Virus record (IMG/VR): IMGVR_UViG_3300044729_004440
Span: 1-37,579 of that record
DNA length: 37,579 nt
Strand: one strand, 5' to 3'
DNA from: a virus
This document shows positions 15,603 through 26,733 of this stretch, piece after piece (position 1 is the stretch's first letter; every line of letters begins with the position of its first letter). Both the position numbers and the translations under genes were made by a program. Below the pieces are notes generated by a model. That model did not search any database. It was given only the letters and a program-made list of their open reading frames with translations, and was not told the origin of the DNA.

Positions 15603-16498
15603 GCGAGTCGACGCTCATCCTGCGCGACGCTGGCAGCGAGCTCGTCATCGAAGGCGACGACGGTGCGGAGCTCACGCTCGTCGGCGACTCCGAGGTGCTC
15701 GAGGTCGACATGGGCACGATGGGCCCGCAGGGGCTCACCGGGCAGAGCGCGTACGAGCTCGCGGTCGAGGAAGGCTTCGTGGGCGACGAGGCCGCGTGGC
15801 TCGCGTCGCTCGTGGGCCCGCAGGGTCCGACCGGCGCGACTGGTGCAACCGGCGCGACAGGTCCAGCGGGACCTACGGGCGCCACGGGCCCGGCAGGCCC
15901 GCAGGGAGATCCTGGCCCGACGGGCGCGACAGGGGCCACCGGTCCGACGGGCGCCACCGGCCCCGCTGGACCGCAGGGCGACCCCGGGCCCACGGGTGCG
16001 ACCGGCGCAACCGGGGCGACGGGGCCTGCGGGCCCGAAGGGCGACACGGGAGACACCGGGCCCGCGGGCTCGACGGGGCCTGCTGGGCCGACCGGCGCAA
16101 CAGGACCGGCAGGTCCCACTGGTGCAACTGGCCCAGCAGGGCCCGGCGTGCCTGTCGGCGGCACCGCTGGTCAGCTGCCGGTCAAGGCAAGCGGCACTGA
16201 CTACGACGTCGCATGGACCGACCCGCCCATTCGCGGACGCGCCACGCTCGACTTCGGCACGCGAGGCACGGTCGCGAGCGTCAGCGTTGCGAGCGCCACC
16301 GTCACCGCGACCTCGCGCGTGATCGCGAGCATCGCTGCGGTTGCGAGCGCCGACCACACCGCCGACGAGGCGCTCGCAGAAGACATCGAGGTCCGCGTCG
16401 GCCCGATCACGGCCGGCGTCGGTTTCGACGTGCGCGGCATCGTGCGGAGAGGCCGCACAAGCGGCGAGTTCTTCGTCGACTGGATTCAGCTCACCTGA
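15599..16498 (+). CDS. Collagen-like tail fibre protein
   Basis: A 299-residue fibre protein from GTG 15599. The N-terminal ~75 residues form a globular segment (including [37 protein letters not shown], a motif common at fibre bases). About 105 residues of uninterrupted Gly-X-Y repeats follow ([13 protein letters not shown]..., up to GPAGPG), predicting a collagen-like triple helix. The sequence '[24 protein letters not shown]' is the usual transition in phage fibres. The C-terminal ~90 residues are beta-rich and probably the trimeric tip. Confidence 0.85.
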
Positions 16499-24340: not shown

Positions 24341-24507
24341 GACTTCCCCGCCTTCTCGCGCTCGTCGTACGCGCGCAGCAGCTCGGCGAGCACGTCGCCG
24401 CGCACGTCGCAGCGGTCTGACTCGTCGAGCGGCGCGCGCTTCGCTTCGGCGCGCCACCACTCGATGGAGCCTTCGCCCTCGGTCCAGGTGGGCTTGCGGT
24501 TCGTCAC
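24337..24507 (-). CDS. Small acidic early protein
   Basis: A 56-residue product from GTG 24507 (GTGA overlap with the RecD2 N-terminal gene). It reads VTNRKPTWTEGEGSIEWWRAEA, then KRAPLDESDRCDVRGDVLAELLRAYDERE. It is helical and charged. Unknown function; it lies within the segment that separates the two RecD2 halves. Confidence 0.55.
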   Translation of the reverse strand: MTNRKPTWTEGEGSIEWWRAEAKRAPLDESDRCDVRGDVLAELLRAYDEREKAGKS

Positions 24508-25427
24508 GCCGCCCTCCGCTGCTCTGCGCCGCCTCGCGCGCCCAGCATCGCCAGCGCGCGCCGCGCCACGCCCTGCTCGGCGCGGTGTGTCGTCGCCAGG
24601 TAGACGCGGCTGCCCTCCTGGATGACCACGCCGAGGCCCACGGCGCGCCAAAGCTCGCGGGCGACGATGTCGCGCGCCAGGCCGAGCGTGTCGCTCGCGA
24701 TGGCCAAGAGCGCCCCCGAGACGACGTAGCAGTGCCCGGCGCCCTCGGCCTCGCTGAGCGTGTGCATGAGGCACGCGCGGATGCGGCTCGGGTGGTCGCT
24801 CGGCGTGCCCATACGGCGCGCGACCTCGTCGGCGCGCCGGAAGCCGAAGCCCTCGACGACCTCGGCGAGCCGGAACGGGTCGGCGCGCAGTTCGGCGACG
24901 ACGGCGCCCTTCCATGCCTCGCGGCAGCGGCTGATCTGATACTCGCTCAGGCCCCAGCCGCGCAGCGTGACCATCTCCTCGCGCTCGCCCTGCACGCGCC
25001 GATACTCGGCGCCGATCTTCTCGGCCGCCTCCGCGGTGATGCCGCGCACCTCGACGAGCTGCTCGGGCGTGCGCTCGAGCACGTCCCACAGCGCCGGGAT
25101 GCCGTACCGCTCGACGAGCTCGGTCGCGCGCTTGCGCCCGACCGCGGGGAGCTTGCTGGCGATCCACGCGATCGCCCCCTCCGCGCTCGACGGCACGATC
25201 GTCGAGATCGTGCTCGCCTTGAACTGCTTGCCGTACTGCGGGTGCACGTCCCAGCGCCCGCGGCACTCCACGGTCGTGCCCTCGTCGATGCCGAGCACCG
25301 TGCCCATCACGGCCACGGCGGCGTCGCCCGAGCCCCCGCGCACCATCGCGCGGCCCCAGCCGTCCTTGAGCAGCTTCACCGAGGCCACCTGGCCGCGGAG
25401 CACGTCGAGGTCAGGCGCGGGACGCAT
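24504..25427 (-). CDS. recD2: RecD2 N-terminal OB/helix-hairpin-helix half
   Basis: A 307-residue protein corresponding to the N-terminal half of RecD2 (YrrC). It has an OB-fold (VASVKLLKDGWGRAMVRG ... VECRGRWDVHPQYGKQFKASTI), tandem HhH segments (LPAVGRKRATELVERYG ... VRGITAEAAEKIG), then the RecD2-specific 'DPFRLAEVVEGFGFRRADEVARRMG' and 'RIRACLMHTLSEAEGAGHCYV'. A winged-helix-like end ('ELWRAVGLGVVIQEGSRVYLATTHRAEQGVARR') stops where the helicase core would begin. No Walker motif is present. The motor is encoded four genes downstream at 21776-23236. Start ATG 25427 overlaps the upstream stop (TGATG). Confidence 0.85.
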   Translation of the reverse strand: MRPAPDLDVLRGQVASVKLLKDGWGRAMVRGGSGDAAVAVMGTVLGIDEGTTVECRGRWDVHPQYGKQFKASTISTIVPSSAEGAIAWIASKLPAVGRKRATELVERYGIPALWDVLERTPEQLVEVRGITAEAAEKIGAEYRRVQGEREEMVTLRGWGLSEYQISRCREAWKGAVVAELRADPFRLAEVVEGFGFRRADEVARRMGTPSDHPSRIRACLMHTLSEAEGAGHCYVVSGALLAIASDTLGLARDIVARELWRAVGLGVVIQEGSRVYLATTHRAEQGVARRALAMLGARGGAEQRRAA

Positions 25428-25990
25428 CACACCACCTCGTACCGACCGAAGCGCTGCCGGAAGTCGCCGAGTCCGATCAGCGCACCAGACACCGATGCGA
25501 ACTCGCGGACCGTCGCCTCGTCGATCATCGACTCGACGTACGCGAGATCGATCGCCAGCCTCCAGCCCGTGGGGATGCGGGGACGCGTGCGGATCACGCG
25601 CGCCTGACCAACTTTCACGGATCGACGGTCGCGATACTGCGGGTCTGCCCACAGCGCGTCGAGATCCTTTGGAAGACCGAAGTACGCGCGATCGTTGATC
25701 GCAGTCACAGCGCGCTCGATCAGCTTGCCGCTCTTGGACATGCGCGCGCCGTCCTGGATGGACCGGACCACGTTCCACGTGGGCATATGCACGCCGCCCT
25801 CATCGTCGTAGTAGAGGCCGGCTTCCCACTCGACGCGCGCGATGTCGTGCTGCGCCTCGGCAGTCTTTTTGTCCTTGCGCTTCGTCATGCGCGCCAGTTC
25901 GACCGCCGCTGGATTCAGCGGGTCACACGCAACATCGGAGTGCAGAAGGAGTGGCCGAGTGCCACGGATCGTCAGCTTCATCGTCTTCAT
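25427..25990 (-). CDS. Conserved phage protein, possible RAMP-like fold
   Basis: A 187-residue protein from ATG 25990, preceded by AAAGGTGGG at good spacing. It begins MKTMKLTIRGTRPLLLHS, has a charged helix (RMTKRKDKKTAEAQHDIARVEWEAGLYYDDEGGVHMPTWNVVRSIQDGARMS), and ends with IGLGDFRQRFGRYEVV. The Gly-rich basic end resembles the G-rich loop of RAMP/Cas7-type RNA-recognition folds, and I recall similar proteins in other phage recombination modules. That fold is only a suggestion. It sits between an unknown gene and recD2-N, so a recombination or replication role is likely. Confidence 0.6.
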   Translation of the reverse strand: MKTMKLTIRGTRPLLLHSDVACDPLNPAAVELARMTKRKDKKTAEAQHDIARVEWEAGLYYDDEGGVHMPTWNVVRSIQDGARMSKSGKLIERAVTAINDRAYFGLPKDLDALWADPQYRDRRSVKVGQARVIRTRPRIPTGWRLAIDLAYVESMIDEATVREFASVSGALIGLGDFRQRFGRYEVV

Positions 25991-26024
25991 TGGAAACCCA
26001 CCTTTCTTGCTCACAAGAGCCCTT

Positions 26025-26109
26025 GCCTCGCCAGGCCCGGCCAAGCCGTGCCAGGCCTCGCCGAGCCAGGCCAGGCCCGGCCATGCCGAGCCAGGCCTCG
26101 CCGAGCCAG
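26025..26109. repeat. GCCNN pentanucleotide array 1
   Basis: Seventeen consecutive pentamers of the form GCCNN with no slip in register (GCCTC, GCCAG, GCCCG, GCCAA, GCCGT ...). The first three bases are invariant while the last two vary. On the early-operon strand it reads NNGGC repeats and lies in the untranslated gap before the gene starting at 25990. Confidence 0.9.
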
Positions 26110-26173
26110 ACCCGAACCCACGCTCGGGTACCGCCCCCGAGATCGCTTGCCGTGGATGTTCACCAGAACCCTC

Positions 26174-26213
26174 GCCGAGCCGCGCCATGCCGTGCCCCAC
26201 CTGGCCCAGCCAT
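26174..26213. repeat. GCCNN pentanucleotide array 2
   Basis: Eight further pentamers, seven of them GCCNN (one diverged to ACCTG), separated from array 1 by 64 bp of unrelated sequence and not in phase with it. It ends next to the stop of the gene at 26224. The 233-bp gap 25991-26223 holds no other feature that I can see. Confidence 0.8.
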
Positions 26214-26223
26214 GGCACGAAGT

Positions 26224-26733
26224 TCAACGCCTCGCCTTCCCGAGCGCGCGCAGCGGCGCTCGCAGAGAATCGAGGTGCGCCTCGATGTCGGAAGCGCGAC
26301 GGCGCTCCTCGTCACTGAGCATCTGAGTTGCGACGTTGGAGGCGCGGCTCGCGCCCGACGACAGCGCTTTACGCGCCTCTCGCAGAGCGTCCTTCTGCGC
26401 CCTGTCGGCCTGCTCTCGCGGAGTCACAAGCTCGTACTCTCCAGGCTTCGTGGACTGGAGGTCTCGCTTGCAGTTCTTGAGCAGTTCCTTCCGAGCACTG
26501 AGCAACAGAGACGCGAAGAGAAGGCGGTTCTTCTCGCACCTCCGGACGTAGTCCTTGTCTCGCTCGCCGGGGCCACGAACTGGCACCTCGCTCAACCCGG
26601 CAGCGGTGTAGAGCGCGGCGGTTGGGATGGACTCGCCGTACTGCATTTGAAGCACACGGGTCACGATGCCGGCCCAGGGGCGCGGGTTGGATTCCTGGTG
26701 TGCAGTCGTTGTCGAAGAGCCTGAGTCGAACAT
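26224..26733 (-). CDS. Hypothetical early protein
   Basis: A 169-residue protein with a perfect GGAGG Shine-Dalgarno before ATG 26733. It contains 'WAGIVTRVLQMQYGESIPTAALYTAAGLSEVPVRGPGERDKDYVRRCEKNRLLFASLLLSARKELLKNCKRDLQ' and a basic helical C-terminus (RAQKDALREARKALSSGASRASNVATQMLSDEERRRASDIEAHLDSLR). No family recognised. Neighbours are recombination proteins, so an accessory DNA-binding role is possible. Confidence 0.65.
   Translation of the reverse strand: MFDSGSSTTTAHQESNPRPWAGIVTRVLQMQYGESIPTAALYTAAGLSEVPVRGPGERDKDYVRRCEKNRLLFASLLLSARKELLKNCKRDLQSTKPGEYELVTPREQADRAQKDALREARKALSSGASRASNVATQMLSDEERRRASDIEAHLDSLRAPLRALGKARR

Follow-up and report, generated by a model that had tools for sequence, protein, structure and literature searches.

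The window analyzed here, a 37,579-nt stretch of viral DNA (IMG/VR record IMGVR_UViG_3300044729_004440), derives from an uncultivated, contractile-tailed phage whose tail sheath is ~34% identical to those of the nearest isolated phages. Two minus-strand genes, 26224..26733 and 25427..25990, are separated by a gap that contains two arrays of pentamers, and the repeat unit on the transcribed (minus) strand is GGYNN. The tract of putative guide RNA (vrRNA) 1, at 26172..26211 (-), has 8 units with the NN series TG CA GG AC AT GC TC GA, and that of guide RNA (vrRNA) 2, at 26023..26112 (-), has 18 units with the series CT TC GA CT TC AT CG CT CT TC GA CT AC TT CG CT GA AA, in which eight different dinucleotides occur. 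In a window-wide count of triplets on the strand as presented, 17 consecutive GCC were found at an exact 5-bp period (26025-26107); by the same measure the longest period-5 run of any other triplet was 4, and GCC at periods of 3, 4, 6, 7 and 8 formed runs of at most 3. Runs were 2–5 long in sixty order-2 Markov simulations and never exceeded 5 when the gap was dinucleotide-shuffled 500 times, so that runs of the observed kind are absent from shuffled sequence. An earlier note on this DNA had described 17 plus 8 strict GCCNN pentamers. The arrays and their period of 5 are real, but the GCC is not strict: one unit of the 8-unit array and the first unit of the 18-unit array carry GGT, and GGY as the triplet gives 18 plus 8 units. 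A tandem repeat scan of the window also located a 40-bp duplication (95% match) inside the 18-unit array, and part of the repetition is therefore recent.

Each repeat tract is followed directly by a short hairpin on the minus strand, GGG-TTC-TGGT-GAAC at 26158..26171 for vrRNA 1 and GGG-CTC-TTGT-GAGC at 26009..26022 for vrRNA 2. Both are weak by z-score, with energies within the range of shuffles. The two tails share their layout, a GG followed at the same offset by a 4-bp stem (GTTC-TGGT-GAAC vs. GCTC-TTGT-GAGC), and their stems differ by one compensatory difference. Pooled folding of the 35 nt following 338 arrays gave no excess of structure over the upstream sequence, as tails vary between lineages and some arrays continue. 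A further hairpin, ACCCGA...TCGGGT at 26110..26129 (-), lies just before guide 2 (z of only -1.17) and is a possible 5' boundary or processing element of that guide. An Rfam search returned no match at the arrays, and no hammerhead ribozyme was found in 13 sources.

The gene at 25427..25990 (-), here called vipr, encodes a protein of 187 aa that matches phrog_4652 (E 1.8e-45) and is homologous to the Vipr protein of Escherichia phage SUSP1 (33.7% identity over 193 aa, E 2e-29, using the fetched SUSP1 genome). When its AF2 model (pLDDT 95.8) was compared with the PDB by Foldseek, Csm3/Cas7-type subunits from CRISPR complexes of types III and VII ranked first (E 3e-6); Z reached 11.2 across 148 residues. 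The product is thus predicted to be a small single-domain RAMP homologue with an RRM core and a G-loop; the C-terminal glycine loop is the most conserved region of the family. This fold prediction agrees with the suggestion, made from the letters alone, of a RAMP-like gene next to the arrays. The gene at 26224..26733 (-), which would be transcribed ahead of the guide RNAs, encodes a vap-like accessory protein of 169 aa (phrog_5926, E 7.8e-13). Its AF2 model (pLDDT 90.6) comprises a helix and a wing-like hairpin followed by long helices; the model had no significant match in the PDB, and a DNA-binding role is for this reason only tentatively suggested. Directly after vipr, the 24504-25427 (-) product looks by eye like a RecD2-type helicase in its N-terminal part only, with no motor domain recognizable, and might be a further accessory protein. 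Elsewhere in the window, in the structural gene region, a collagen-like Gly-x-y coding repeat with a 72-bp period (15851-16113) is probably a tail-fibre segment.

VIPR (Viral Interference Programmable Repeat) is a phage-encoded RNA-guided system related to CRISPR, described in a 2026 preprint, and combines a RAMP protein (Vipr) with a vap gene and with guide RNAs (PMC13142463). The guides have YNNGG repeats, 9–16 of them as reported for the SUSP1 and P. fulva clades, and a structured tail; their NN bases are reported to pair with double-stranded DNA, one base being skipped per repeat, and binding to repress transcription (PMC13142463). In SUSP1 and in a P. fulva prophage the guide RNA was shown to be expressed and to co-purify with Vipr, and in SUSP1 the one-base skip rule and NN-specific targeting were shown as well; in nature the systems are reported to be directed against competing phages, satellites and prophages (PMC13142463).

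With a vap-family gene near vipr and sense-strand GGYNN arrays of 8 and 18 units between them, the locus is read as a VIPR locus closest to the SUSP1 type (type II), at a probability of about 0.93. It shares with the SUSP1 system a single small RAMP protein, GGYNN guide RNAs with a probable 3' tail, a GGYNN array just upstream of vipr, a vap of the same family (the SUSP1 protein matches a profile built with the window vap), and the lack of a CRISPR array, none being detected in the window by the tandem repeat scan. The two differ in gene order, guide-vipr-vap-guides in SUSP1 vs. vap-guide-guide-vipr here, and the window has short tail hairpins and two guides whose lengths fall just outside the reported 9–16 units, which are a range and not a defining limit. 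Likeness to the Cas7/Csm3 backbones of class 1 CRISPR-Cas lies in the RAMP fold with its C-terminal glycine loop, and by this analogy the protein would be expected to coat its guide RNA; no Pfam cas match was obtained among the proteins around the locus.

By homology to the tested systems, we infer expression, complex formation, a target and an effect in the window phage along the following lines. A minus-strand transcript would carry the two guide RNAs, on which the RAMP protein Vipr (25427-25990) would assemble as a row of subunits, one on each GGY, leaving only the NN dinucleotides exposed for pairing. The NNs would jointly define a target in double-stranded DNA, every third base of which would go unread, the complex bound there would repress transcription, and the 26224-26733 product would act as an accessory protein. 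The earlier note had proposed a filament-forming protein, for example a recombinase or annealing protein, as the ligand of the arrays; binding by some protein arranged along the repeats is very probable, whereas a recombinase or annealing protein is unsupported. Targets of the window system are likely to be competing phages, satellites or prophages. A more elaborate variant of VIPR, in which the 18-unit guide owes its unusual length (36 specifying bases) to internal duplication so that one RNA may act as two related guides, and in which the order vap-guide-guide-vipr links guide 2 with the leader of vipr and adds self-regulation, is considered rather unlikely.

In order to place the arrays in a wider context, viral contigs were scanned blind, without protein knowledge, for a DNA pattern of ten GCCNN units. 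At least 120 stretches were recovered, and comparable arrays are thus present in many other phages. Among the matches listed, arrays occurred in contigs of 39–76% GC, often several per contig and with freely varying NN, so the heterogeneity is general despite the duplication in the window. All ORFs of the 120 listed stretches were clustered without prior expectation and a profile was built from the top family. A single dominant family emerged, which includes the window gene 25427-25990, and the profile search placed this vipr family (phrog_4652) in 88 of the 120 listed stretches; 53 of 54 aligned members matched phrog_4652, whose annotated function is unknown. A listing seeded with only the window protein comprised 53 loci, the window among them. 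In 52 the GGYNN strand of the array is the sense strand of vipr; in the sole exception (L073, 468-955) it is the opposite strand, i.e., arrays and gene are divergently transcribed. Only one of the 21 loci carrying both genes, L076, shares the vap-first order of the window. Related-locus searches gave no matches, whether the query was the window protein or an alignment of 22 members, and in 249 Pseudomonas genomes phrog_4652 was matched once, with no array in the short stretch around that match.

Heterogeneous arrays of at least nine units in viral contigs fell in vipr-family loci in 224 of 258 cases. In bacterial contigs the vipr family was present in only 5 of 120 matched loci; 7 of the 10 arrays in those loci were heterogeneous, against 4 of 122 elsewhere, the rest being low-diversity repeats. 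This contrast is a useful internal control for the link between array and vipr. The earlier note's idea of a triplet kept fixed by selection, with the other two bases free to vary, is borne out. Array lengths in the other array-carrying loci ranged from 8 to 30 units, with up to nine arrays in one locus and arrays often downstream of the vipr and vap genes. Unbroken arrays of 29–30 units, about twice the published guide length (L057, 2673-2824; L042, 3464-3606; L060, 4371-4513), could be explained by staggered overlapping guides, which are mentioned for VIPR (PMC13142463). In some 28 viral loci heterogeneous GGYNN arrays were present with no phrog_4652-like gene in the DNA covered (L020, L028, L032, L041, L050, L057, L062, L067, L068 and L075 among them). 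Two of the 28, L056 and L112, contain or border on a vap-family gene close to a gap or the end of the contig. Such loci may be truncated, or may encode Vipr types too divergent for the profile.

Relatives among isolated phages were found by Vipr protein similarity alone: Felixounavirus wV8, Mycobacterium phage LittleE, Pseudomonas phages LESphi2 and Medea1, Gordonia phage MakoManhole and the M. abscessus prophage prophiBWHA-1. Sense-strand GGY arrays adjoin the vipr-family gene in wV8, LittleE and LESphi2, and in LittleE and LESphi2 hairpins with other stems stand at the same place as in the window. The array of MakoManhole has 7 units, that of Medea1 is imperfect, and none was present in the stretch examined around the prophiBWHA-1 gene. 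In all six isolated phages examined the gene following vipr belongs to phrog_5926. In wV8 (L252, 3440-5430), GGT-rich guide arrays lie on both sides of gp95-gp94; some of this array DNA is annotated in GenBank, where its sole label is repeat DR_4. The first array is closely preceded by a good sigma-70-like promoter (TTGACA, 16 bp, TATACT).

The arrays might instead serve as an autoregulatory platform, the RAMP protein coating (GGYNN)n in its own mRNA leader with the NNs as mere spacers. Sites of TRAP (trp RNA-binding attenuation protein) are NAG-NN repeats in RNA, and the fixed triplet with a two-base spacer resembles them; guide 2, moreover, directly precedes the vipr start. TRAP differs in its protein fold and in its triplet, and in VIPR the spacer bases carry information. 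Arrays that often lie downstream of the vipr and vap genes, and number up to nine per locus, are hard to reconcile with a leader function, and NN-specific targeting has been shown for the homologous SUSP1 system (PMC13142463). Autoregulation, the first hypothesis entertained, was dropped on the strength of that report and of the downstream arrays, and is now held to be very improbable; the plain mRNA-leader idea of the earlier note gives way likewise to the published guide RNA, in which the variable bases specify a DNA target (PMC13142463). Still less credible is the view that the arrays are double-stranded DNA sites for a filament-forming phage protein. The triplets do stand at half-turn spacing, but their orientation is fixed relative to vipr, tail hairpins follow the array, the neighboring protein has a RAMP-type RNA-binding fold, and RNA co-purifies with the homologous Vipr (PMC13142463); the half-helical-turn reading of the DNA is displaced by the published mechanism, in which a guide RNA specifies the DNA target (PMC13142463). 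Least probable of all, and already contradicted by the eight different dinucleotides among the 18 NN and by the concentration of heterogeneous arrays in vipr loci, is an origin as functionless low-complexity DNA produced by slippage, for which the 40-bp internal near-duplication and the mostly plain, low-diversity pattern matches in bacterial genomes may be cited.

Under the VIPR reading, targets were sought by scanning viral contigs with 8- and 9-unit segments of both guides, with one skipped base; matches were chance-like and included no convincing target. Skips of 0–4 bases were compared within the sequences collected and none stood out, as was to be expected with targets unlikely to be among the sequences compared. 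Two LESphi2 guides searched against the 249 Pseudomonas genomes gave two matches with two mismatches, about the number expected by chance. Neither comparison reproduced the one-base skip rule. These outcomes, the repeat numbers of 8 and 18 and the weak energies of the tail hairpins count against the VIPR reading.

Within the searchable literature VIPR has so far been described only in the 2026 preprint (PMC13142463), and the general phenomenon, striking as it is, is already described. The window led to VIPR independently, from raw DNA, and recovery of the Vipr family by a protein-blind pattern scan (88 of 120 listed viral contigs) supports the link between repeat and protein drawn in the preprint. 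(GGYNN)n with diverse NN offers a simple DNA signature for VIPR loci in metagenomes. A VIPR guide reads two bases of every five, compared with five of six in class 1 CRISPR, and VIPR represents a non-contiguous principle of RNA guidance that has been proposed to be older than CRISPR (PMC13142463).
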